Shown: in pieces, positions 1,628 through 55,796 of the stretch
Layout of the letters: each line of letters opens with the position of its first letter
Numbering within the stretch: position 1 is the first letter of the stretch
Assembly: GCF_004353525.1 (NCBI RefSeq)
Contig: NZ_CP085524.1
Span: 692,001-756,000, forward strand
Direction: 5' to 3'
Length of the DNA: 64,000 nucleotides
DNA from: Zhaonella formicivorans
GTDB taxonomy: Bacteria > Bacillota > DUOV01 > Zhaonellaceae
Made by a program: the position numbers and the translations under genes
The notes under the pieces: model-generated
Databases searched by the model: none
What the model was told of the DNA's origin: nothing
What the model saw: the letters and a program-made list of their open reading frames with translations, nothing else

Positions 1628-3079
1628 ATGTTGGGATTCTTTGGCAGCCTGTTGACCGGGTTTTCTACTATTGCTTTGGCGGGAATAGGAACTTTTTTGT
1701 TCGGCAAACAGGGCATTGATTATCTGATTGACAACTTAAGCAAAAGCTTAGTAACGGATAAATACCCCGAAAATTTATGGGAAATGTATAATACTGCCCA
1801 AAAAGTCACTCCGGGGGCTGCCATGGAAGCTGCAATGCGTGCGGAAACAGGTAAAGCATTAAACCGGCCTTATGGCAGCCCACTTCATTTTTCTCCCTGG
1901 GAAAAGTTGTTGTTTAATCCGGTTCAGTTGTTCCGCTTACCTGTGCCGGACAATGTTTCAATTGAGACAAGAGTTGTAATCGGCCCGCGGGCGAGAAACC
2001 CCTTAAAATTAGCAATTCCTTTGCTCATTGGTGGAATGTCTTACGGTGGTGCCCTTAGCAAAAGAGCAAAAATAGCTTTAGCCATTGGGGCCTCAATGGC
2101 GGGGAGTGCAACAAATTCCGGGGAGAGCGGTTTTCTGCCGGAAGAACGCAAGGCGGCAAACCGTTTTATCCTGCAGTATCACCGAGGCGGCTGGACTAGC
2201 CAGGCAAAATTCCTTAACCAGGCCGACATGATCGAAATCCAGCTGGGCCAGGGGGCGCAAGCTTCCGCTCCTATGAAAACGCCGGGTAAACTGATCGGAG
2301 AAGAGATGCGGGAGGCGTTTCAGCTGCTCCCCGGGCAGGATGCAGTCATTCATTCCAGGCTGCCGCAAGTGGAAGAACCTGCCGATCTCAAAAAGCTGGT
2401 GGAGAAACTGCGGAAAATCTCAGGGGGAGTCCCCATAGGGATTAAGTTAGCTGCCAGCCACCACTTGGAAAAGGAACTGTTAATTGCCATTGAAGCCGGA
2501 GTGGATGTAATTGCTCTGGATGGTGCCGAAGGAGGTACTCACGGCGGCCCCCCGATCTTACAAGATGATGTTGGGCTGCCCACTATGCTGGCATTAGTGC
2601 GCGCCGATGAATTTTTAAAAAAATATGGAATAAGGCAGGACATTTCGTTGATTGCTGCCGGTGGGCTCAGAACACCGGGGCAATTTTTGAAAGCCATGGC
2701 GCTGGGAGCTGATGCCGTCTATATTGGGACAATTGCCACTATTGCTATGGTTTCTGACCAAGCAGTAAAAGCCCTGCCCTGGGAGCCGCCTACCAGCTTG
2801 CTATTCTATCTGGGACCATTAAAAGAGGAGTTGGATGTAGACCGGGCAGGGGAAAATTTAGCCAATTTTTTGCGGTCTGCTGTCCATGAAATGACATTAG
2901 TGGCCAGGACTTTGGGCAAAACTTCTTTAAAAAACATTGACAAGAGTGATTTATGCGCACTTGATCAAGAAGTTGCTAGGTTCACGGGAGTGGCCCTCGC
3001 TTACCATGCTCCCGATGAGGTTTTCCCTTTTGTTCCGCTTGGCAGCGGCGATACTCGCTATAATAACACGCATTACTAG
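1628..3079 (+). CDS. FMN-binding glutamate synthase-domain protein (GltB2/YerD-like)
   Basis: A 483-residue protein with the FMN-binding TIM barrel of the glutamate synthase large subunit but no glutaminase domain. ATG 1628 is chosen because GGGGAGTGAG lies just upstream and the protein then begins with a hydrophobic helix (MLGFFGSLLTGF...), so it is probably membrane-anchored. Barrel motifs include IGGMSYGGALS, LDGAEGGTHGGPP and AAGGLRTPGQF...GADAVYIGT. The cysteine cluster that follows GADAVYIGT in archaeal GltB2 proteins is absent here (TIATIAMVSDQ...), so no Fe-S cluster is expected. Similar stand-alone proteins (YerD) occur in spore formers. The true electron donor and substrate are unknown. 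It ends TAG-TGA, two stops in tandem. Confidence 0.8.
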   Translation: MLGFFGSLLTGFSTIALAGIGTFLFGKQGIDYLIDNLSKSLVTDKYPENLWEMYNTAQKVTPGAAMEAAMRAETGKALNRPYGSPLHFSPWEKLLFNPVQLFRLPVPDNVSIETRVVIGPRARNPLKLAIPLLIGGMSYGGALSKRAKIALAIGASMAGSATNSGESGFLPEERKAANRFILQYHRGGWTSQAKFLNQADMIEIQLGQGAQASAPMKTPGKLIGEEMREAFQLLPGQDAVIHSRLPQVEEPADLKKLVEKLRKISGGVPIGIKLAASHHLEKELLIAIEAGVDVIALDGAEGGTHGGPPILQDDVGLPTMLALVRADEFLKKYGIRQDISLIAAGGLRTPGQFLKAMALGADAVYIGTIATIAMVSDQAVKALPWEPPTSLLFYLGPLKEELDVDRAGENLANFLRSAVHEMTLVARTLGKTSLKNIDKSDLCALDQEVARFTGVALAYHAPDEVFPFVPLGSGDTRYNNTHY

Positions 3080-3150
3080 TGACAATTGCCAGTATAGCTT
3101 GTTCTTTTTAGATGCAACCTAAAATAAAACTTAGTAAAGGAGTGTTATGG

Positions 3151-14513: not shown

Positions 14514-16211
14514 GTGGTGGTCAGAAAGAAATTAGGCGAACTATTGGTGGAAAGCCAGCTGATTACCGCGGAGCAGTTGAACCAAGCGTTGCGGTCTAAG
14601 AAGCCCGGCGAAAGGTTAGGCCAGGTGCTGGTAAGCCTTGGGTATGTAACGGAACAGGATATTATTAACGTCTTGGAGTTTCAGCTGGGTATTCCGCAAA
14701 TCAAACTTAGTGAGCTGAGCTTGGAGTTAAACGTAGTCAGGTTGTTGCCGGAGTCCATAGCCAGAAGGTATAATGCCATACCCGTTAAACTGAATGATGG
14801 TTATTTAACGGTGGCTATGGTAGATCCTCTCAACGTGGTGGCTCTTGATGATATCAGGCTTACAACCGGTTATGAAATTGAGCCGGCTATTGCTACTGAA
14901 GAGGAGATAACCAGGGCTTTAGCAGAGTACTATGGGCTGCAGGATTTGGCTGATAAAGTATTACAGGAATTGGAAATAAGCCAAGTGGTGGAAAGACCGG
15001 AACTGGTCCAGTTAGGGGAAGGGGCCTCAGACGGAAACGAGGCACCGGTAGTGCGTGTTGTCAACTCCATAATTCAGCAGGCTATAAAAACAAGAGCCAG
15101 CGACATTCATCTCGAGCCTCAGGAAGATAAGGTGCGGGTGAGGTTTAGAGTGGACGGCTTGCTGCGCGAAAACATGGCACTGCCTAAAAACTCCGCCGCC
15201 TCTATAGTCTCCAGAGTGAAAATTATGGCCGAGATGGATATTGCAGAAAAAAGGGTCCCACAGGATGGGCGGATACAGCTTAAGGTTGAAGGCAGGGAGA
15301 TCGACCTGCGGGTTTCTTCTCTGCCAACCATTTTCGGTGAAAAAATTGTCATGCGTATTCTGGATAAATCCAGCCAGTTAATAAGTTTGAACAAGTTGGG
15401 ATTTAGGCCGGAACTGTTGAACGCGTACATTAACCTAATCAATATTGCCTATGGCATGATCCTGGTCACCGGGCCCACCGGGAGCGGTAAGACAACAACC
15501 CTCTACGCTACTCTAAACGAAATCAACACTGCCGAAAAGAATATAGTTACAATTGAAGATCCGGTTGAATATGTTTTAGAAGGAATCAACCAGATCGGGG
15601 TCAATACCAAAGCCGGGCTTACATTTGCCACCGGCTTGCGTTCCATCCTTCGCCAAGATCCTGATGTAATTATGGTGGGTGAAATCAGGGACGGAGAAAC
15701 GGCTGATATTGCAGTGCGGGCTGCAACTACCGGTCACTTAGTGTTCAGCACTTTGCACACCAACGATGCCGCCGGAGCCTTACCGCGCCTGATTGATATT
15801 GGAGCGGAGCCATTTTTGGTGGCTTCCTCTGTGGCAGGTGTAGTAGCCCAGCGGTTAGTGCGCGTAATTTGTCCAAAATGTAAAAAGGCATATCAAGTCC
15901 CACCCGGTGCGGCGGAAAGGCTGTTTTTGGCAAAGCCGGAAGGAGACTTGACCATTTTTAAAGGCGTTGGCTGTCGGGAGTGCGGTAATACGGGCTATAA
16001 AGGGCGCATGGCAATACATGAGGTACTGCATGTTACCAGGGAAATTCGGGAGCTGATTATGGAAAAGGCGCCGGCGGAAACTATTAAGCAGCAAGCGGTA
16101 AAACAGGGCATGGTGACTTTAAAGGAGGATGGCGTACAAAAAGTGTTGTGCGGGCTGACTACAGTGGAGGAAGTAATGCGGGTTGCTTACAGCGAAACGG
16201 CAAGCTGGTAG
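14514..16211 (+). CDS. pilB: Type IV pilus extension ATPase PilB with MshEN-like N-domain
   Basis: Hexameric cytoplasmic ATPase powering pilus assembly. Residues 6-57 form a tandem MshEN-like c-di-GMP module: the first motif is degenerate (K6-L-G...), the second intact (R34-L-G36...G43...Q57). The core has Walker A GPTGSGKTTT at about 320, the Asp-box IEDPVEYVLEGINQIGV, Walker B VIMVGEIRDGETA and a four-cysteine zinc site (CPKCKK...CREC) near 450-490. At 565 residues it is full length. GTG 14514 follows GGCGGAAG. It is the first pilus gene, 25 bases after aroB. Confidence 0.95.
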   Translation: MVVRKKLGELLVESQLITAEQLNQALRSKKPGERLGQVLVSLGYVTEQDIINVLEFQLGIPQIKLSELSLELNVVRLLPESIARRYNAIPVKLNDGYLTVAMVDPLNVVALDDIRLTTGYEIEPAIATEEEITRALAEYYGLQDLADKVLQELEISQVVERPELVQLGEGASDGNEAPVVRVVNSIIQQAIKTRASDIHLEPQEDKVRVRFRVDGLLRENMALPKNSAASIVSRVKIMAEMDIAEKRVPQDGRIQLKVEGREIDLRVSSLPTIFGEKIVMRILDKSSQLISLNKLGFRPELLNAYINLINIAYGMILVTGPTGSGKTTTLYATLNEINTAEKNIVTIEDPVEYVLEGINQIGVNTKAGLTFATGLRSILRQDPDVIMVGEIRDGETADIAVRAATTGHLVFSTLHTNDAAGALPRLIDIGAEPFLVASSVAGVVAQRLVRVICPKCKKAYQVPPGAAERLFLAKPEGDLTIFKGVGCRECGNTGYKGRMAIHEVLHVTREIRELIMEKAPAETIKQQAVKQGMVTLKEDGVQKVLCGLTTVEEVMRVAYSETASW

Positions 16212-16221
16212 GAGGGAAAAA

Positions 16222-17277
16222 ATGCCCATTGATGATTTGTTAAATCAGGCAGTTAAGTTTAAGGCTTCTGATGTACATTTGACTGTAGGAAAGCCGCCGG
16301 TGTTCCGGATTAACGGCGATTTACAGCCCCAGCAAAGTTATGGTATTTTATTGCCCGAACACACCGAAGGGTTAGTAAAAGAAATTCTAGATGAAGAGAA
16401 GTTTAAGATTTTGGCCCAAAACGGAGAATTGGATTTTGCTTACTCTGTTCACGGTTTGGGAAGGTTCCGGGTGAATGCATTTTACCAACGGGGCACCGTC
16501 AGCATGGTGTTAAGACTGATTAATGCTGAAGTACCTGCCCTAGAGGAGCTAAATCTGCCTGCCGTACTTGTGGACTTGACCAAAAAGAATAAGGGCTTGG
16601 TGCTGGTAACAGGGCCCACCGGGAGCGGCAAATCCACCACCTTGGCGGCAATGGTTGACAGGATCAATTCTGAGCGCAGCTGCCATATTATCACTTTGGA
16701 GGACCCGATCGAGTACATGCACCAGCACAAAAAAAGCATAGTAAACCAGCGGGAAATCGGTTCCGATTCCAAAAGCTTTGCTACGGCCCTCAGGGCTGCG
16801 CTGCGCCAGGACCCTGATGTTATTATGGTGGGGGAGATGCGCGATTTAGAAACTATTGCTACTGCCCTTACCGCAGCCGAAACGGGCCACCTGGTTTTTG
16901 CCACATTACATACTGGAAGCGCTGCCCAGACCATTGACCGGATTATCGATGCTTTTCCGCCTCACCAGCAGTACCAAGTCCGGGTGCAGCTGGCAGAAAC
17001 ACTCCAGGGAATTATCTCCCAGCAGCTGCTCCCGCGCGTAGACTGTCCCGGGCGGGTGGCTGCAGTGGAGGTACTCATAGCTACGCCGGCTGTGCGCAAC
17101 CTGATCAGGGATGGGAAAACCCACCAGATTTACTCCAGCATTCAGACCGGAATGAAATACGGGATGCAAACAATGGATATGGCATTAAAAAACCTTTACC
17201 AGGCAGGTATAATCGGTCGCGAGGAGGTATACTTACGCGGCAGCGACCCAGCCAACGTGAATATAATGCTGGACTAA
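16222..17277 (+). CDS. pilT: Type IV pilus retraction ATPase PilT
   Basis: Cytoplasmic ATPase that disassembles the pilus and drives twitching. It has KASDVHLTVGKPPVFRINGDL, Walker A GPTGSGKSTTL at about 131, ALRQDPDVIMVGEMRD, the His box TGHLVFATLHT and the PilT-specific AIRNLIRE-type motif as TPAVRNLIRDGK. ATG 16222 with AGGAGGG just upstream gives 351 residues. It follows pilB after ten bases; a riboswitch separates it from pilC. Confidence 0.95.
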   Translation: MPIDDLLNQAVKFKASDVHLTVGKPPVFRINGDLQPQQSYGILLPEHTEGLVKEILDEEKFKILAQNGELDFAYSVHGLGRFRVNAFYQRGTVSMVLRLINAEVPALEELNLPAVLVDLTKKNKGLVLVTGPTGSGKSTTLAAMVDRINSERSCHIITLEDPIEYMHQHKKSIVNQREIGSDSKSFATALRAALRQDPDVIMVGEMRDLETIATALTAAETGHLVFATLHTGSAAQTIDRIIDAFPPHQQYQVRVQLAETLQGIISQQLLPRVDCPGRVAAVEVLIATPAVRNLIRDGKTHQIYSSIQTGMKYGMQTMDMALKNLYQAGIIGREEVYLRGSDPANVNIMLD

Positions 17278-17370
17278 AGGGTTGTAATAAAAAATGTACG
17301 GGCATAAAAAGGAATTTTAGACATGAAGGCGAATATATAGTCTGCACAGCCAAATAATGTGTTGATCCCC

Positions 17371-17453
17371 AAATATTAGGCAAACCTGTCGAAAGGCAGG
17401 GACGCAAAGCTGCGGACCTACAGACAAACAGTCTATGGTAGCCGGGCTGCCGA
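17371..17453 (+). promoter_or_regulatory. Cyclic di-GMP-I (GEMM) riboswitch
   Basis: The GEMM-I core is plain: AGGCAAACC, a GAAA tetraloop hairpin (CCTGTC-GAAA-GGCAGG), the invariant GGGACGCAAAGC, then GGACCTA...TATGGTAGC and the closing GGTAGC-CGG-GCTGCC stem. It lies in the 242-base gap between pilT and pilC, a known setting for this class because c-di-GMP controls pili. Its 3' stem (17441-17452) is also the 5' arm of the downstream terminator, so ligand binding should prevent termination (ON switch, by inference). Confidence 0.93.
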
Positions 17454-17488
17454 AGGTTTAATCATGTAACCCGGTACCCGGCTTTTTG
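17441..17488 (+). terminator. Riboswitch expression-platform terminator
   Basis: GCCGGG, CCG and GGTT (17441-17459) pair with AACC, CGG and CCCGGC (17469-17482), followed by TTTTT. The 5' arm is part of the aptamer's last helix, making the two folds mutually exclusive. Confidence 0.85.
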
Positions 17489-17519
17489 CGTACTCTTCAG
17501 CTTTAGGAAGTGTTTAGTA

Positions 17520-18725
17520 GTGCCAACTTATAGTTACCGCGCCAGGGATTTATCGGGACAGCAGGTGAAAGGCCTCCTGGAGGCGGAGAACAGGGAAGCC
17601 GCAGTGGAGAGGCTCCGGGAGCAGAAACTATTTATCACTGCAATCCACGAAGCGCGAGCCTCATCCATTACCTGGCGGACAATCAGACAGGAAAAAATCC
17701 CGGGCCGGCATATGGCGGTGTTTTGCCGCCAGTTTTCCACCATGATTAACGCCGGCTTGCCCGTTTTAACCTCATTGCTGATTTTAAAGGAGCAGACAGA
17801 GAACAGAACATTGCGCCAGGTAATAGGGCAGGTTGCCCAGGATTTGCAAAAGGGCGAAACCCTGGCTGATGCTTTCCGGGCCCATCCTAAGTTAATCCCT
17901 GACCTGATGGTCAATATGGTGGAGGCTGGGGAGGTTGGCGGCGTGTTGGACGAGGTGCTCTCAAGACTGGCTGTTCATTTTGAAAAAGAGCACGCTATGC
18001 GGGAAAAAGTAAGGTCTGCCATGACTTATCCGGTGGTAGTGCTATGTGTGGCATTATTGGCGGTGATTTTTCTTTTAACATTTGTTTTACCTGCCTTTCA
18101 AGGGATTTTAACAAATTTAGGAGTGGAAATGCCTTTTTTGACCAAGGTGATTCTGGGCATAAGCGCTTTCTTGCGCACCTTCTGGTATCTTGGCTTATTG
18201 TCCATAACACTTTTTGCCGTTGGAGTAAAAAAAAGCTTAGCAACCGAGCGGGGCAGAACAGTTTGGGATAAATTCACCCTTAAAGCGCCTGTATTGGGCG
18301 CTTTAACCCAGAAGGTGATCATTTCCCGCTTTGCCCGAACATTAGGGACTTTGTTAAAAGGTGGCGTTCCTATTCTCCAGGCTCTTGAGGTTGTTAAGCG
18401 CACTGCGGGTAACAGGGTTGTTGCTGAGGGAATTAGCAAGGCTCAGGTCAACATCAGGGATGGCGGGGGTATGGCTGGGCCCCTGGCCGAATGCGGAGTA
18501 TTTCCTCCCATGGTAATTCAAATGATCGCTATAGGGGAGGAAACGGGGGTGCTGGACAGCTTGCTGGAGAAACTCAGCGACTTCTATGACGGGGAAGTGG
18601 ACAACATGGTCAGCAGGCTCTCCAGCATTATCGAACCGCTGATGATCCTCTTTTTAGGCGGTATAGTTGGTTTCATCATTTTGGCAATCCTGTTGCCGAT
18701 GTTTAAGATTATTGGTTCTATTTAA
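17520..18725 (+). CDS. pilC: Type IV pilus inner-membrane platform protein PilC
   Basis: Polytopic platform protein (GspF family) that couples the ATPases to pilin subunits in the membrane. Two GspF domains are seen, each with a helical cytoplasmic part (MAVFCRQFSTMINAGLPV; ISRFARTLGTLLKGGVP) followed by membrane helices (YPVVVLCVALLAVIFLLTF; MILFLGGIVGFIILAILLP). 401 residues. GTG 17520 follows AGGAAG. It is the first gene after the c-di-GMP riboswitch, so its expression, and probably that of pilA and beyond, depends on the switch. Confidence 0.94.
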   Translation: MPTYSYRARDLSGQQVKGLLEAENREAAVERLREQKLFITAIHEARASSITWRTIRQEKIPGRHMAVFCRQFSTMINAGLPVLTSLLILKEQTENRTLRQVIGQVAQDLQKGETLADAFRAHPKLIPDLMVNMVEAGEVGGVLDEVLSRLAVHFEKEHAMREKVRSAMTYPVVVLCVALLAVIFLLTFVLPAFQGILTNLGVEMPFLTKVILGISAFLRTFWYLGLLSITLFAVGVKKSLATERGRTVWDKFTLKAPVLGALTQKVIISRFARTLGTLLKGGVPILQALEVVKRTAGNRVVAEGISKAQVNIRDGGGMAGPLAECGVFPPMVIQMIAIGEETGVLDSLLEKLSDFYDGEVDNMVSRLSSIIEPLMILFLGGIVGFIILAILLPMFKIIGSI

Positions 18726-18753: not shown

Positions 18754-19143
18754 ATGCTGAAATGGTTTAGGAAGCTGCTGAAGGATGAGAAGGGCTTTAC
18801 TTTGATTGAGCTAATGGTGGTAGTTGTAATCATTGGTATTTTAGCGGCCATTGCGGTTCCGGCTTTTTCGAATTCCTCAGATAAGGCTAAGGTGAGCAAG
18901 GCGAAAGCAGATCTTAGAACTCTGGAAAGTGCTTTGGCTGTATACTATGCTGAAAATAACTTTTACCCAAATAGTCTTAATGATTTGGTGACAGGTAAAT
19001 ATATTAAACGACTGCCAAAAGATCCTTGGGATAATGATTATGTATATTCTATCAGCTCTGGAAGTTATAACTTATATTCCAAAGGATCAGATGAAGATGA
19101 TGATAATGGAGAAGCTGGTGATATAAATTCTAGAGACTTATAA
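18754..19143 (+). CDS. pilA: Major type IV pilin (PilA/GspG-like)
   Basis: Prepilin of 129 residues. A short charged leader ends at the prepilin peptidase site KG/FTLIELMVVVVIIGILAAIAVPAF, with Glu at mature position 5. The body resembles GspG-type pilins (KADLRTLESALAVYYAENNFYP...LPKDPWDNDYVYSI) and ends with an acidic DEDDDNGEAGD segment that may bind calcium. ATG 18754 lies after a perfect AAAGGAGGTGA, the strongest RBS in the locus, fitting a highly expressed subunit. A large palindrome and a terminator follow. Confidence 0.92.
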   Translation: MLKWFRKLLKDEKGFTLIELMVVVVIIGILAAIAVPAFSNSSDKAKVSKAKADLRTLESALAVYYAENNFYPNSLNDLVTGKYIKRLPKDPWDNDYVYSISSGSYNLYSKGSDEDDDNGEAGDINSRDL

Positions 19144-19146
19144 ACT

Positions 19147-19186
19147 TATATATATATATAATATACGTATATTATATATATATATA
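19147..19186. repeat. 40-bp perfect AT palindrome
   Basis: Two exact 20-base arms of alternating T/A meet at ACGT (19165-19168), three bases after the pilA stop. As DNA it could extrude as a cruciform; as RNA it would form a hairpin at the 3' end of pilA mRNA. Confidence 0.85.
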
Positions 19187-19194
19187 TGATTTAC

Positions 19195-19214
19195 GGCAGG
19201 GCAAAAGCCCTGCC
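19195..19214 (+). terminator. Hairpin after pilA
   Basis: GGCAGGGC-AAAA-GCCCTGCC, a perfect eight-pair stem followed by TTACTCTATA. Together with the palindrome it probably terminates or processes most pilA transcripts, leaving pilD at a lower level. Confidence 0.7.
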
Positions 19215-19248
19215 TTACTCTATATGCTAAGTTAACTTGAGGTGTCAA

Positions 19249-19992
19249 ATGCTTTATTTATTTACCTTCTTCTTTGGCCTAATCATCGGCAGCTTCCTTA
19301 ACGTCTGCATAAATCGTATTCCCAGAGGCGAATCTATTGTTGCACCGTCTTCCCGCTGCGAAAGCTGCGGAGTGAGGCTTAAGCCCTGGGATTTGGTGCC
19401 GGTGCTTAGCTGGCTGCTGTTACGGGGCAGATGCCGCTACTGCGGGGCAACAGTATCTCCCAAATATCTTATAGTCGAGCTGTTAACAGGTTCCCTGTTT
19501 GTTTCGCTCTTGGCTGTTAAGGGTTTATCAGCTGAACTTATTCCTTATTTAACATTAACTTCTATTTTAGTTGTCGTTGGTTTCACTGATCTGGAACATT
19601 ACCTCATTCCCAACAAGGTAATTATTGCCGGTTTTGTTTTGGGTGCGGGATTACATATCTTTTTCCGGCATTTGGATTGGAAGGATATTTTCTTAGGCTT
19701 TTTGGCCGGGGGAAGCATACTTTATCTTTTGGCTGTGCTCAGTAAAGGGGGCATGGGGGGCGGCGACATCAAGCTGGCTGCCCTGCTGGGGTTTTACCTT
19801 GGCTGGCAAGGGGTGCTGCTTACCCTCTTTTTAGGCGCTTTGCTGGCTTCCGTTACAGGAATTTGGTTAATAATTCTGGGCAAAAAAAGCAGGAAGGACC
19901 CTCTGCCTTTTGGAGTTTTTTTAAGCATTGCTGCAATGATTTCCATGCTGTATGGCGGAAATATTTTAACTTGCTATTTAAATGCTTTATAA
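19249..19992 (+). CDS. pilD: Prepilin peptidase / N-methyltransferase PilD
   Basis: Polytopic aspartic protease that cuts prepilin leaders and N-methylates the new Phe. The N-terminal zinc site is present (CESC...CRYC), after GSFLNVCINRIPRGESIVAPSSRC. The two catalytic aspartates lie in TDLEHYLIPN and GGMGGGDIKLAA. ATG 19249 after TTGAGGTG gives 247 residues. It should process PilA and the four pseudopilins that follow. Confidence 0.94.
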   Translation: MLYLFTFFFGLIIGSFLNVCINRIPRGESIVAPSSRCESCGVRLKPWDLVPVLSWLLLRGRCRYCGATVSPKYLIVELLTGSLFVSLLAVKGLSAELIPYLTLTSILVVVGFTDLEHYLIPNKVIIAGFVLGAGLHIFFRHLDWKDIFLGFLAGGSILYLLAVLSKGGMGGGDIKLAALLGFYLGWQGVLLTLFLGALLASVTGIWLIILGKKSRKDPLPFGVFLSIAAMISMLYGGNILTCYLNAL

Positions 19993-20125
19993 CTAATTTG
20001 TATTATCTTCCTTGAGACTAACATGAAAGCAGCTACAAACTTATAAGGCAAAATTTACCTGGCTTTCCGGAAGTGCAGGAAATAATTAAGAAGTTGTCGA
20101 ATTGGCTTATAAGAGGTCGATTAAG

Positions 20126-20602
20126 ATGTCTAGCTTCCCGGTAAAACAAGAACAGGGGTACACGTTCCTGGAAATCATGATAGTGGTAGTTTTGATTGGC
20201 TTGTTCTCTACTGTGGCTTCACCTGCTGTGGAAAGTGTTGTTGCCCGCCAGAGGCTGATAGCAGCGGTCAGAACTATGACCGTTCATTTGCGTGAAGCTC
20301 AACAATTAGCCATTTCCAGGGAGCAAAGTGTCACTGTTTTGTTTCGCAGGTATAACAGCTTGGCTCTGCCAAACTCTTATACAATCAGGTTTTCCCCTTC
20401 GGAAATTTATGCTACCGAACGTTTGGAAGATGGAATTATCCTGGCTTATACAAGCTTTGCAAATCAGATGCTTGTCTTTAATACTCTTGGCGCAGCTAAT
20501 GCGGGACATGTTCGGCTGGAAAACAGCAGAGGAGACAGGATGTATATAATTGTTGACCAAGTTGGAAGGGTGAGAACCAGCGATGTTCCGCCAAGTACTT
20601 AA
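20126..20602 (+). CDS. GspH/FimT-type minor pseudopilin
   Basis: Prepilin-like protein of 158 residues with cleavage motif QG/YTFLEIMIVVVLIGLFSTVASPA (Tyr at +1, Glu at +5). The pattern RQRLIAAVRTMTVHLREAQQLAISREQSVTV is that of GspH/FimT pseudopilins, which prime pilus assembly. ATG 20126 with AGAGGT upstream is preferred to TTG 20102. It overlaps the next gene by 20 bases. Confidence 0.85.
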   Translation: MSSFPVKQEQGYTFLEIMIVVVLIGLFSTVASPAVESVVARQRLIAAVRTMTVHLREAQQLAISREQSVTVLFRRYNSLALPNSYTIRFSPSEIYATERLEDGIILAYTSFANQMLVFNTLGAANAGHVRLENSRGDRMYIIVDQVGRVRTSDVPPST

Positions 20603-20963
20603 AGAAGAAAGGGGTTTTACCCTCGTTGAATTGATGATAGCGGTTATAATTATGTCCGTGGCATTAATTCCAATGTTTTCAATGTTTGATTTCGCAGTCA
20701 AATCACAGCAACAAGGTGAAATGGAATTACATGCACTGTATTTAAGTCAAGGAAAGATGGAAGAGCTACTGGCCGATTATTACCAGAACAAAGCTTTTTT
20801 AACACCGGAAGCCAAAAGCGAACAAATAAACGGGTATACTGTCAGCACTTATATTGGGGTTCCTTCCGGAAATTTGCAGGAAATTCAGGTTGCTGTTTCA
20901 TATACTTTTCATGGGAAGCAAAAAAAAGTTAGCTTGACTACAAAGGTGGTAGAATACCCATGA
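20583..20963 (+). CDS. PilV/GspI-like minor pseudopilin
   Basis: Prepilin-like protein of 126 residues: RG/FTLVELMIAVIIMSVALIPMFSMFD is the cleavage site and hydrophobic stalk, followed by a small domain. The stalk lacks the proline/alanine pattern of major pilins. It is translationally coupled to its neighbours (20-base overlap upstream, four-base overlap downstream) and is probably part of the priming tip complex. Confidence 0.8.
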   Translation: MFRQVLKEERGFTLVELMIAVIIMSVALIPMFSMFDFAVKSQQQGEMELHALYLSQGKMEELLADYYQNKAFLTPEAKSEQINGYTVSTYIGVPSGNLQEIQVAVSYTFHGKQKKVSLTTKVVEYP

Positions 20964-21436
20964 AGGTGATTCAAAACGAAAAAGGGTTGACCTTTGTGGA
21001 ATTGCTGGTAACCATGACCATATTTGGCTTGATCATAATTTCCTTATACGGCCTTTTAGATTCGGGGTTACAGTTGTTTAAAAAATATGATTCACGCCTG
21101 GAGCAATTACAGCATATGCGGGTTGCCATGGAAACTATCGGACGAGATTTAAGGGCAGCTCAGTCGGCTGCATTTAATCAAAATTTAAAACAGCTGACAC
21201 TGAGTGTTTACGGCAAAACGGTGAAATACGGTCTGGAAAGTGAAAATATTTACGGCCCCTCAGGATTAAGGGGCAAGCAGTTATGGAAAGATACCCAAAA
21301 CCAGCCTTTAGCCAGTTATCTGGATGACTTTACAGTAAAAATTGAAAACTATTTTGTTGAAGTTACCTTGGCTGCCAAAAGCCCTGAGGGTAAAACATTG
21401 GTATTAAAAAATTCATTTGCTTTAAGAAATAAATGA
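20960..21436 (+). CDS. PilW/GspJ-like minor pseudopilin
   Basis: Prepilin-like protein of 158 residues with KG/LTFVELLVTMTIFGLIIISLYGLLDSG at the N-terminus and MRVAMETIGRDLRAAQSA, a GspJ/PilW-type helix, next. It is the third in a tightly packed run of minor pilins and probably sits in the pilus tip. A four-base ATGA overlap links it to the preceding gene. Confidence 0.8.
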   Translation: MKVIQNEKGLTFVELLVTMTIFGLIIISLYGLLDSGLQLFKKYDSRLEQLQHMRVAMETIGRDLRAAQSAAFNQNLKQLTLSVYGKTVKYGLESENIYGPSGLRGKQLWKDTQNQPLASYLDDFTVKIENYFVEVTLAAKSPEGKTLVLKNSFALRNK

Positions 21437-21452
21437 TAACGGGAGCGGAATA

Positions 21453-22856
21453 ATGTACCTTGATAATTCCAGAGGTTCTGCTTTCATAGCTGCCATCATG
21501 GCAGTGCTCATTGTGCTGACCCTTGGCCTTGGAGTTTTATCTATGGCTACCAGCGAGGGCAAAATTTCCAATAATCATCTCAAATCGACACAAGCTTTTT
21601 ATATTGCGGAAGCAGGAATAGCAGAAGCGGTTAGTGTGCTTCTGGACAACCCGGATGCGCCAGAGGGAGAAATAATTAACAAAACTATTGGGGCTGGCAC
21701 AGCAGTTGTTAATTTAGACTGGTCGGGAAACATAGCTACTTTGACTTCAGTGGGAAGAGTGGGGGAAACAAAAAGGACTGTAACGGAAAAAGTTAAAGTT
21801 ATTGCCCAGTCCGCTCTTAAAAGCGCCATAACCTCCTTTCAAGGTTCAAACGGTTGGTTTACTTTAGGCAATAACATTGAGATCGACGGGGATATCAGCA
21901 CCGGGGTTGGCATAACGATAGGCAATAACGTTAACATCGACGGACTGATTTATTCAAATCGGGAACAATGGGTTGCGCCTATTTATCAGGATAAGTTGAT
22001 TGTTGATGAGGATTTGGCTTTACCGGAATTTCCGGAGTTACAGGAAATTCCCGCTTGGCAAAAACCAGGTGATTTAGGTACTCCTGTTGTATATGGATAT
22101 GTGAACGATGCTGATAAGTTTGCAACAGGAGCTAAATATTATCAAGCCGATACCGTTATTCTTGACAAGGGCCTGGAACTCAATGGGGTATATATTGAAT
22201 GTACTTATTTATCCTTGCCTACGAATCATAAATATAGCGGTATAACTTTTGATCTAACCGGGAGCTCCGGTAGTATATCGGTCGGCCAGAAGACGGAGCT
22301 GAATAATGTCAACTTAATTTCCGATTCCATCACTATTAGCAACAACGTTGTAATTAGAAATTCCACAGTCCAGGGAAAGACGATTAACGTTGGAAACGGC
22401 GCAGTGCTGGAAAACGTCAAATTACTTGCCGAAACAAGTGTTAATATAGGCAACAACTCAGTAATGAAAAATGCTACAATTCAGGGAAAGACTATTACCA
22501 TTGGAAATAACGTCTTGCTGGAAAACGTCAAAATACTTGCTGAATCAAGTGTGACTATTGGCACTAGCGATAGTAAGCCTAAGAAACCTGAAGATATTCC
22601 AAATGTAGGTTATATAATAAGCAATGGTACTATAACTTTAGGTAATTTCAGTTTACGAGGCTACATTCTCTCCCATAGTCAATTAACTGTAAGTAATAAT
22701 AGCTTTATTGTAGGGGCTATTGGGGCCGGAGGTTTGACCATAGGCAATAATACGGAAATCATCGCTTCCAACAACACTGGGGCACCTGTCCCTCCGTCCA
22801 TGGGCGGAGTGGAAATAACCAAACAAAGTTGGTCCGAAGGGATGGTTAGTCAATAA
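21453..22856 (+). CDS. PilX-N-domain pilus protein with predicted beta-helix repeats
   Basis: A 467-residue protein with one N-terminal membrane helix (GSAFIAAIMAVLIVLTLGLGVLSMA) and the PilX-like segment STQAFYIAEAGIAEAV; there is no classical GFTLxE cleavage site. From about residue 130 onward it contains many short repeats of the type hxIGNNVxI/L (for example TLGNNIEIDGD, TIGNNVNIDGL, NVGNGAVLENVKLLAE, TIGNNVLLENVKILAE), typical of a right- or left-handed beta-helix. It lacks a recognisable adhesin domain but, at the end of the minor pilin run, is a good candidate for a large pilus-tip protein. Confidence 0.75.
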   Translation: MYLDNSRGSAFIAAIMAVLIVLTLGLGVLSMATSEGKISNNHLKSTQAFYIAEAGIAEAVSVLLDNPDAPEGEIINKTIGAGTAVVNLDWSGNIATLTSVGRVGETKRTVTEKVKVIAQSALKSAITSFQGSNGWFTLGNNIEIDGDISTGVGITIGNNVNIDGLIYSNREQWVAPIYQDKLIVDEDLALPEFPELQEIPAWQKPGDLGTPVVYGYVNDADKFATGAKYYQADTVILDKGLELNGVYIECTYLSLPTNHKYSGITFDLTGSSGSISVGQKTELNNVNLISDSITISNNVVIRNSTVQGKTINVGNGAVLENVKLLAETSVNIGNNSVMKNATIQGKTITIGNNVLLENVKILAESSVTIGTSDSKPKKPEDIPNVGYIISNGTITLGNFSLRGYILSHSQLTVSNNSFIVGAIGAGGLTIGNNTEIIASNNTGAPVPPSMGGVEITKQSWSEGMVSQ

Positions 22857-22937
22857 GTTGCTCAATATCTCTATGAAAAAATATCAATTGTGTGCGGAGG
22901 CTGATGATTTACACATTTGCAGGAAGGAGGGGGTTAC

Positions 22938-24008
22938 ATGCGTGCATGGAAAAAATTTTTTAATAAAATCCGTCCCACCATCGGCATCGATATCGGTTCA
23001 ACCAGCATTAAAACCGTTGAACTGCATGGCAATAGCCGTAACTTGCAACTGGTCAGTTCTCATCGCCGAATTACCCCTCCTGATGCTATAGTTGACGGGG
23101 TAATTAGTAATCCCGGAGCTGTAGTTAAAGAATTGAATGAAATTGTTGAACACCAAGGCTGGCAGGGACGTCAGGTAGTCACTGCTATTGGGGGCAGGAA
23201 GGTTGTAATCCGGCACCTGAAACTGCCTGTAATGCCTGATTCAGAACTGAAGCAAGCGGTCCATTGGGAAGCTGAAAAATACTTGCCTTTCGGCAAGCAA
23301 GAGTTAGTGCTTGACTTTGCTAGCTTGGGTCAGGTCGGGGGCGAGAGTGGTAAACAGCTTTTGATTCTTTTGGCTATCGTACCTAAGGAAGTGGCTATGG
23401 GTTATTACGAAGTATGCAGTGCCGCCGGATTGGATTTGGTGGCTATCGATATTATCCCTTTAGCCCTGCAAAGAGCTCTTTTTTTTGCGGAAACCAATGC
23501 CCAGGAAATTGCGGTAGCCGATATAGGGGCAGAATTGACTACTTTCAGTGTAATCTCGGCTGGAAAAGTGAGTTTTGCCAGGACTATCGCCGCTGCGGGC
23601 CGCTCTATTAACAAGGCTATTGCCAATTCATTTAACTTGGAAGTTGCCGCTGCCCAAGAATTGAAGGAAAAAGCAAGTGACGTTTTTGAAATTAAAAGTC
23701 CTGAAATGAAAGCAACAGAGTTCCCTGGTCTGGAGGTCATAATCCGGGACAGTTTGTTGGAATTGGCTCAGGAGTTGCGCCGTTCTATTGATTTTTGGCG
23801 GACCCAAAGCAATGGAAAAAATATTGCCAAGCTAATTTTGACCGGAGGCACTGCCCGTTTGACGGGGATAGACCGCCTTCTCAGCCAGGAACTGGAACTT
23901 CCTGTAGAAATAGGCCATCCTTTAAAACATTTGCTTGACTCAGGAAAAGTACTGGAGCCGGATTTTGCTGTAGCCAGCGGTCTGGCAATGAGAGGAGTAG
24001 GGGATTAA
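22938..24008 (+). CDS. pilM: Type IV pilus assembly protein PilM
   Basis: Actin-like cytoplasmic ATPase that forms the inner-membrane alignment complex with PilN and PilO. The nucleotide-binding phosphate loops are GIDIGSTSIKTVEL near the N-terminus and VADIGAELTTFSV in the middle, with LILTGGTARLTGI at the end. ATG 22938 with GGAGGGGG upstream gives 356 residues; a longer in-frame start is unsupported. pilN follows directly. Confidence 0.93.
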   Translation: MRAWKKFFNKIRPTIGIDIGSTSIKTVELHGNSRNLQLVSSHRRITPPDAIVDGVISNPGAVVKELNEIVEHQGWQGRQVVTAIGGRKVVIRHLKLPVMPDSELKQAVHWEAEKYLPFGKQELVLDFASLGQVGGESGKQLLILLAIVPKEVAMGYYEVCSAAGLDLVAIDIIPLALQRALFFAETNAQEIAVADIGAELTTFSVISAGKVSFARTIAAAGRSINKAIANSFNLEVAAAQELKEKASDVFEIKSPEMKATEFPGLEVIIRDSLLELAQELRRSIDFWRTQSNGKNIAKLILTGGTARLTGIDRLLSQELELPVEIGHPLKHLLDSGKVLEPDFAVASGLAMRGVGD

Positions 24009-24557
24009 ATGGCGGCCCGGATCAATTTACTGCCTGTTGAATTGCGGCAGGATTTGCCCGTTGATTGGCAGAGGCTCTTGCCCAAAGTGGCAATTATTGC
24101 CGTAGTTACCGCAGTCATAAGTGCTTATCTGTTCTTTTTGGGGTTTAGCTTTACCTTAAAAGTGCAAGAGCAAAAGCTTGATCGTCAGTTAGCAACCCTG
24201 GAACCTCGCATGAAAGAGGCACGGGAAGCACAACATTCCATTGCTGCCTTGGAAAAGCAAAAAATGCAGCTTGAGGAGATTCTGCGGAAAAGAACCGAAT
24301 GGAGCCAAATCTTGTTGGAAATTAATGATATATTGCCGCAAAACACCTGGTTGACGTCTTTAAGTGTTGACGGGGAAGGGAGATTAGTTTTACAAGGAAA
24401 ATCATTGGACCTCACTGCACTTGGTGTGTTTGTCCATGAATTGAACCGCTTGCCCTATTTCACAGCAGCCAAGCTCACGCAAGCTGAATCCGGCACGGAA
24501 GGGGAAACGGCGGTAATAAATTTCCAGATAGTTGCGGCAGTTGGAAAAGGAAGATGA
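24009..24557 (+). CDS. pilN: Type IV pilus assembly protein PilN
   Basis: Bitopic membrane protein of 182 residues: the cytoplasmic INLLP motif near the N-terminus (AARINLLPVELR) docks into PilM, then one membrane helix (VAIIAVVTAVISAYLFFLGF), a coiled coil and a small ferredoxin-like domain. It starts at the base after the pilM stop and overlaps pilO by four bases. Confidence 0.92.
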   Translation: MAARINLLPVELRQDLPVDWQRLLPKVAIIAVVTAVISAYLFFLGFSFTLKVQEQKLDRQLATLEPRMKEAREAQHSIAALEKQKMQLEEILRKRTEWSQILLEINDILPQNTWLTSLSVDGEGRLVLQGKSLDLTALGVFVHELNRLPYFTAAKLTQAESGTEGETAVINFQIVAAVGKGR

Positions 24558-25345
24558 AAGAAGTGTGGCAGAGGCTTTCACCGCGGGAAAAAAAATTAAT
24601 TGTGCTATTAGCTGTTGTTGCTTGTTTCACTTTTGCGCTTCGGGTGTTTTGGCTTCATCAACTACCCCATTTCCAAGCACTGCGGTCACGTGTGGAACAA
24701 AAAAGAGCAGAATTGCAAGATTATCAGATGCTGATTAAAAGGTTGCCGGAACTGCTACGCAGTCAGGAACAAGCGGAGAGGGAGCTGCAGGGTTTGCAAG
24801 CCAGATTTGCTTTAGATCTTCAGAGTGGCTCCCCATTGGTACAGCTGGGGGAGAAGGCTAATAAAGTTCAGCTTTTAGGGGTATACCCCCAGGATGTTAT
24901 TGCCAAGGACAATTATTTAATATTGCCTCTAAAGCTAAAAGTTAGCGGACCATATTTGAGCGTTTTGGAATATATGCAAAGCTTGGAGAATATGCCCAGC
25001 GTGGCGGAGGTTGCCTACCCAAACATTTCCGCCGGTGAGGATGAGGGAGTGGTTCAAGCGGACTTCATTTTAAATTTCTATAGCATGAAAAATGTGCAGA
25101 CTGCACAATTAAACGGGCAGTGGCATTTAGGCAGGCTTAACATTTTTAGTCCGGTCGTACAAGAATCTCCTTCCCAGGAGAGTGAACCGCAGCCGGAAGG
25201 TATCCCTGACCAAAACGGGCGTACTTCTAAGGGAGGGGATGTACATGTTGAGCCCGAACAGGAAACTCAGGACGAAAGTAGGACAGAACAAAGGGAAAAA
25301 ACCCCTAAGGGACCAGCCATTGATTACAAATTTCCTGTGCGGTAG
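24554..25345 (+). CDS. pilO: Type IV pilus assembly protein PilO
   Basis: Bitopic partner of PilN, 263 residues: a membrane helix (KKLIVLLAVVACFTFALRVFW), a coiled coil (about 40-90), and the PilO ferredoxin-like domain (LPLKLKVSGPYLSVLEYMQSLENMP). It carries an extra C-terminal tail of about 60 residues rich in Glu, Gln, Ser and Pro that is probably disordered. It ends in TAG; the next gene starts 16 bases later. Confidence 0.88.
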   Translation: MKEVWQRLSPREKKLIVLLAVVACFTFALRVFWLHQLPHFQALRSRVEQKRAELQDYQMLIKRLPELLRSQEQAERELQGLQARFALDLQSGSPLVQLGEKANKVQLLGVYPQDVIAKDNYLILPLKLKVSGPYLSVLEYMQSLENMPSVAEVAYPNISAGEDEGVVQADFILNFYSMKNVQTAQLNGQWHLGRLNIFSPVVQESPSQESEPQPEGIPDQNGRTSKGGDVHVEPEQETQDESRTEQREKTPKGPAIDYKFPVR

Positions 25346-51652: not shown

Positions 51653-52270
51653 CTGTTTGTTGAACTATTTTCGGGTGGTGCAGTATTCTAGTCAGAACGA
51701 CCAATTTTGAAGGCGGGCCTAAAAATCCGTCAAGGGCACAGCGATGAAGTTCCTGGTAGTGGCTTTCGACGCCCAGTCGGGGGTTGCTGCTGGGAGTTAA
51801 GAAGGATGGGGCGATCTACAATGGCATGTAGGCGTTGACCCCGCCTTCGTGGAGACCCAAGTGTGTGGTTAGTCTGTCCTAGACAACAGCTACGGCTTGG
51901 GGTAGAAACCTGCATGTTGGTACTAGGCGTGCTGGCTGCAGTGTAGCCTGCCTTGAGTGGTGTTGGTGGATCTAAGGGCTTTCTTACCCGGAAGTTTAAG
52001 GCCTTAAACTTCCGGGTAAGCTATGTGAAACCAGTACTGCAAAAGAGGCTAGAAATCGGTTCGTTCTGTCGGGGAAAACTCCTAGACTGTTTACACCGTA
52101 AGGCCTATACGGGATTAAAGTGTGTGCTAAGTGGTAATCTAGCCCTGATGCCGGTGACGGTTCAGAGCAGTTTTTGAAGGGAAACCGCTGATCCGGTGAC
52201 GGTCAGTAAACTGTTGGGAAATCCTACTAGACCTAAGCCACAAAGTTTACCGTATAGGCTGCCACCCGTC
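51653..52270 (+). ncRNA. ole: OLE RNA (ornate large extremophilic RNA)
   Basis: About 600 bases without a credible protein gene between ispA and oapA/dxs, the defining location of OLE RNA. The 5' part (GGGTGGTGCAGTATTCTAG..., GGCGGGCCTAAAAATCC) and the 3' part match the conserved OLE ends as I know them. A closing helix is visible: CGGGTGG..GCAG (51672-51683) with CTGC.CACCCG (52259-52268). OLE forms a membrane-bound ribonucleoprotein with OapA and, in Bacillus halodurans, OapB and OapC, linked to cold, alcohol and Mg/Mn homeostasis. A 38-base perfect palindrome (51983-52020) fills one internal stem. The 5' end is inferred from the promoter. Confidence 0.95.
51983..52020 (+). repeat. 38-nt perfect palindromic hairpin within OLE RNA
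   Basis: CTTACCCGGAAGTTTAAGG is followed at once by its exact reverse complement CCTTAAACTTCCGGGTAAG. It would form an uninterrupted stem of about 17 pairs with a minimal loop and probably extends a peripheral helix of the RNA. Confidence 0.9.
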
Positions 52271-52304
52271 TATACACATAATGTGGTTCCCTGGAGGAAT
52301 AGCA

Positions 52305-55737: not shown

Positions 55738-55796
55738 AAGTATTGGGAGGATTTACTCAAAATCTGTAGAATAAAAACGAGAAGGGAGGCATTGTA

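Follow-up and report, generated by a model that had tools for sequence, protein, structure and literature searches.

A class I c-di-GMP (GEMM-I) riboswitch preceded by a sigma-H-type promoter consensus lies between pilT and pilC in the type IV pilus cluster analyzed here, and we consider it likely that this riboswitch forms the 5' leader of a transcript that depends on sigma-H and starts between the two genes, an arrangement that would gate the genes behind it on both sigma-H and high c-di-GMP. The aptamer is in itself an ordinary GEMM-I member; the notable part is its pairing with a sigma-H site at pilC across several Bacillota families. With less assurance, we lean toward the broader reading that a recurrent AND gate, made up of a sigma-H promoter and a GEMM-I ON riboswitch, stands between the motor genes (pilB, pilT) and those for platform and pilin in several Bacillota families—kept or re-formed in several lineages—and links stationary-phase and sporulation control to c-di-GMP, with PilB sensing the same signal at the protein level. 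If this is true, the sigma-H transition-state programme and c-di-GMP would meet on one leader of ~150 nt, and a spore former would separate the supply of the pilus motor from that of the fibre and platform.

The cluster lies on the plus strand of the 64-kb window (the whole stretch of DNA that was analyzed), as delineated from the list of open reading frames (ORFs) and Pfam matches (Table 1). The gap between pilT, whose true start is probably 16224, and pilC measures 242 nt, and pilC and the pilA-type pilin gene are predicted to be the first and second genes under riboswitch control. Farther downstream, the pilin-like ORFs and PilX_N are supported by Pfam, and the PilD, PilM, PilN and PilO labels come from reading the sequence. 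Between the pilin and prepilin peptidase genes (19142-19216), a long (AT)n palindrome precedes a strong hairpin (GGCAGGGC-AAAA-GCCCTGCC); together they could set pilin mRNA above the downstream genes.

Table 1 Features of the pilus cluster and its riboswitch leader (window positions)
Feature	Position	Strand	Support or remark
aroB	ends 14488	+	pilB start 25 nt downstream, same strand
pilB, extension ATPase	14514..16211	+	Pfam T2SSE, 484.7 bits
pilT, retraction ATPase	16183..17277	+	ORF as listed; last gene before riboswitch
Sigma-H-type promoter	17308..17336	+	-35 AAAGGAATT (17308-17316), N11 spacer, -10 GGCGAATAT (17328-17336)
c-di-GMP-I (GEMM-I) aptamer	17369..17454	+	RF01051; P2 with GAAA loop 17385-17400; P3 17408-17448
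Expression platform: predicted intrinsic terminator stem and U-tract	stem 17440-17483, U 17483-17487	+	folding
pilC, platform protein, GTG start	17520..18725	+	Pfam T2SSF, 226.8 bits
pilA-type pilin	18754..19143	+	Pfam N_methyl, T2SSG
Prepilin peptidase, three pilin-like proteins, PilX-like, PilM, PilN, PilO	19237..25345	+	ORFs

The Rfam c-di-GMP-I model RF01051 matches the aptamer over its full length (model positions 1-87 of 87; 80.9 bits vs. a gathering score of 35; E = 2.5e-14 in the 64-kb window), confirming the GEMM-I aptamer that a sequence-only reading had placed between pilT and pilC. The 3' strand of P3 (17442-17448) pairs with 17408-17415, and the RF01051 alignment retains the conserved GGCAAAC, GAAA, GGGACGCAAAGC, AGCCG and GCUGCCGAA segments, with loop, receptor helix and ligand pocket all conserved and a single departure from consensus (CUAC for CUAA on the tetraloop-receptor side). 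We take the GG before CAAAC as typical of c-di-GMP riboswitches and not of cGAMP ones, and family membership likewise makes c-di-GMP the predicted ligand. GEMM-I RNAs have long been associated with motility and surface genes; the genome holds seven c-di-GMP-I aptamers and seven GGDEF domains.

Overlapping the 3' end of the aptamer, folding predicts an intrinsic terminator (pairs 17440-17446/17477-17483, 17448-17452/17472-17476 and 17455-17458/17468-17471; stem energy about -23 kcal/mol) followed by five U, a short tract that counts against our main reading. Its 5' arm consists of the 3' strand of P3 together with the strand behind P3, and when the downstream bases were shuffled with the aptamer 3' strand held fixed, 2 of 300 shuffles folded equally well or better. 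An overlap at 17441-17452 and a terminator end at about 17488 had been proposed earlier, and both agree essentially with these folds, the U run ending at 17487. A generic terminator scan did not detect the 17440-17483 hairpin because its loop is longer than the 3-8 nt to which the scan is limited. For 17350-17490, the unliganded minimum energy is -49.5 kcal/mol, with terminator pair probabilities of 0.96-1.0, compared with -35.2 kcal/mol when the aptamer is enforced, in which case no second terminator forms. Since the terminator is favoured by ~14 kcal/mol without ligand, the switch would have to act kinetically; and since the terminator is incompatible with the ligand-bound aptamer in these folds, ligand should prevent termination. 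This mutual exclusion, on which the direction rests, supports the prediction of a transcriptional ON riboswitch, and the ON direction of the sequence-only reading finds support both in it and in the recurrence of the overlapping hairpin in relatives.

The site between pilT and the aptamer fits the sigma-H consensus RnAGGAwWW-N11/12-RnnGAATww in full, with transcription expected to start near 17342. We noticed the motif by reading the upstream sequences of GEMM-pilC loci side by side. Across the genome, the strict pattern AGGAWTT-N13-CGAATW has 20 matches (one of them at 17310) vs. 0 in the reversed control, and spoVG and spoVS, which we identified by reading the sequence, lie behind strict sites in this genome; in B. 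subtilis both are classical targets of sigma-H. SigH itself is encoded in the genome (TIGR02859, 380 bits), and consensus and recurrence together point to sigma-H use at 17308-17336. The riboswitch had previously been described as lying inside the pilus operon, which is incomplete in that, with the sigma-H-type promoter, a separate pilC-pilA-... transcript would begin with the riboswitch as its leader, read-through from upstream being possible in addition. No good sigma-A promoter was found in the pilT-pilC gap by a generic scan, relaxed sigma-A matches there being poor, and a sigma-D/FliA promoter for the upstream bases was dropped by eye on account of its wrong spacing. Two other sigma-H-type sites occur in the window, a second at 20075-20102 (GCAGGAAAT-N12-TGTCGAAT) right before the first minor-pilin gene, about one such site per 64-kb window being expected by chance at the relaxed setting, and a third at 55746 (GGAGGATTT...GTAGAAT).

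Relatives were sought by PilC alone in 101 genomes of the phylum, and the upstream regions of 70 pilC genes were inspected. A GEMM-I aptamer (RF01051, or RF03167 'GGC') lies between pilT and pilC in 8 of these 70 loci, ~60-110 nt from pilC, and is preceded by a sigma-H site in 7 of the 8, compared with 3 of the 62 pilC loci without GEMM that have such a site within 450 nt (p = 2e-6, Fisher's exact test with 3/62 entered as 4; not fully blind, as the motif was first noticed on the 7/8 loci and counted afterwards). By chance, a sigma-H site arises in 0.15% of 130-nt stretches (0.0015 per locus) in first-order Markov shuffles. Both the genome-wide motif count and a composite search of 398 genomes were performed after the motif had been fixed; the composite pattern, in which a GEMM core follows a sigma-H site by 20-50 nt, was present in 34 of the 398 genomes of the phylum, with 0 matches in the reversed control. 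Ten of the 30 composite loci that we fetched precede pilC and one a pilin gene; some others are followed by HU-like, flagellar rod or chemoreceptor genes, as judged by reading N-termini. For instance, a sigma-H-type site and GEMM-I stand before HU-like genes in several genomes of family f12 (L159, L161-L165), and genes for HU-like DNA-binding proteins are an unusual c-di-GMP target.

None of 30 GEMM loci of relatives in other settings (selected for top score and not at random) carries a sigma-H site, which indicates that the pairing belongs to the pil loci and some others rather than to GEMM generally, and rules out a sigma-H promoter at every GEMM-I element. Elsewhere in the window's own genome, the aptamers at L001 and L006 have looser sigma-H-like sites and that at L005 a sigma-A-like site.

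Together with loci that came to light later, 17 GEMM-pil loci were examined, the window's included, 16 of them before pilC and one (L145) before a pilin gene. An overlapping alternative hairpin and a U-rich stretch are found in 16/17, again counting the window, with divergent sequences; these are per-locus folds, the terminator alignment for family f14 being too gappy for covariation counts. At L178 the strand after P3, not P3 itself, pairs into the alternative hairpin, and at L166 the best terminator is separate and the aptamer strand is not used. A strict sigma-H site is absent from three of the 17 loci (L040, L166 and L178). On the PilC tree the pilT-GEMM-pilC arrangement needs at least 3-4 changes, which implies repeated gain or loss and argues against a single inherited origin; the riboswitch is absent at pilC of the closest same-family relatives of the window genome that we examined. 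This absence, the three loci with no strict site, the separate terminator at L166 and the higher stability of the terminator in the unliganded model likewise count against our main reading. As loci within family f14 share ancestry, the locus counts overstate the number of independent events, for which the tree suggests three to four.

These observations bear unevenly on other accounts of the locus. A purely intra-operon attenuator, with transcription running through pilB-pilT, the riboswitch deciding entry into pilC and no separate promoter, would be in keeping with the generic scan, which found no terminator between pilT and the aptamer, with the close spacing of aroB and pilB on one strand, and with L166 and L178, where pilT-GEMM-pilC occurs without a strict sigma-H site; we nonetheless judge it unlikely, given that the gap contains a full-consensus sigma-H site and that relatives have one in the same place far above chance. 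Decidedly less probable is an OFF switch, in which c-di-GMP binding would promote termination. Although all functional class I c-di-GMP riboswitches of C. difficile are OFF switches (PMC6366702), here the aptamer's own 3' strand doubles as the terminator 5' arm, so that the bound aptamer excludes the terminator, with no second one arising when the aptamer is enforced, and a class I ON precedent exists in Bc2 of Bacillus thuringiensis, which controls a collagen adhesin gene (PMC6366702). We give the least credence of all to a decayed or ligand-blind element whose hairpin would be a fixed attenuator setting the ratio of PilB/PilT to PilC/PilA: in C. difficile, just 11 of the 16 c-di-GMP riboswitches function (PMC6366702), and one tetraloop-receptor base is off consensus in the window, but the conserved loop, junction and 3' strand are retained and the arrangement recurs in several families.

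Under the sigma-H leader reading that we prefer, sigma-H RNA polymerase would start near 17342 and transcribe the GEMM-I aptamer. Were c-di-GMP bound before polymerase reached ~17483, the aptamer would keep 17442-17454 and transcription would read through into pilC, pilA and the genes behind; at low c-di-GMP, the 17440-17483 hairpin would form from these bases instead and polymerase would stop at the U-tract. Platform and pilin genes would then be made only with sigma-H active and c-di-GMP high, pilB and pilT would be supplied by the upstream aro-pilB-pilT unit, and read-through from that unit, possible in addition, would meet the same gate.

The sequence-only reading had PilB and PilT made regardless, which is consistent with the finding that neither a strict sigma-H site nor a riboswitch lies upstream of pilB within the window, but needs qualifying, since c-di-GMP may also influence the activity of PilB. 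The N-terminus of PilB carries an MshEN domain (Pfam MshEN, 82.5 bits) with the motifs KLGELLVESQLITAEQLNQALRSK (residues 6-29) and RLGQVLVSLGYVTEQDIINVLEFQ (residues 34-57), 4 residues apart. Compared with the MshEN consensus of two 24-residue (R/K/L)LGxx[LVI][LVI]xxG[LVI][LVI]x4LxxxLxxQ motifs ~5 residues apart (PMC11731258), motif I departs at two positions (10 and 24) and motif II at one (11). PilB thereby resembles MshE and PilF GSPII-B in domain and near-consensus motifs, with departures from the motif consensus at the positions given. The domain probably binds c-di-GMP, and c-di-GMP may therefore act twice, on platform and pilin supply and on the motor.

Both the GEMM-I aptamer type and the control of type IV pili by a c-di-GMP ON riboswitch, of class II in C. 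difficile, are already known. In Clostridioides difficile, c-di-GMP acts through Cdi-2-4, a riboswitch ahead of pilA1, to switch on type IV pilus genes by read-through (PMC6366702); the window's switch shares the predicted c-di-GMP activation of pilus genes by transcription read-through, but Cdi-2-4 is of class II and stands before a pilin gene, whereas the window's element is of class I and stands before pilC, after pilB and pilT. As a class I switch predicted to turn type IV pilus genes on, it would be opposite in sign to the class I OFF switches of C. difficile. Bc2 shares the aptamer family and the read-through expected with ligand bound (PMC6366702), whereas the window's switch follows a sigma-H-type promoter in the pilT-pilC gap and would control pilC-pilA.... 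In Staphylococcus aureus and Listeria, competence (comG) genes have been tied to an H-type sigma factor (PMC3486894, PMC4754846). The link is again to genes of a type-IV-pilus-like machine, but no riboswitch features in that control as described, whereas the window promoter would act on a type IV pilus cluster and has GEMM-I behind it. Among open-licence papers, we found none that pairs a sigma-H promoter with a c-di-GMP riboswitch.

Several relatives show variations on the pil aptamer itself. For most of the pil aptamers in relatives (pil loci L040, L049, L050, L053, L056, L140, L141, L143, L145 and L146), the best-matching model is RF03167 (c-di-GMP-I-GGC), that of the window being RF01051. 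The pilC riboswitch at L039 (G076, 1321-1404) has A for the first G before GCAAAC (AAGCAAAC), a substitution that confers cGAMP selectivity on other GEMM-I RNAs; GG is present at L040, its sister locus. A riboswitch of a different class, c-di-GMP-II (RF01786), lies downstream of pilC at the pil locus L046 (G036, 2997-3082). Elsewhere in the window, a full-length OLE RNA (RF01071, 547.7 bits) occupies 51659-52281.
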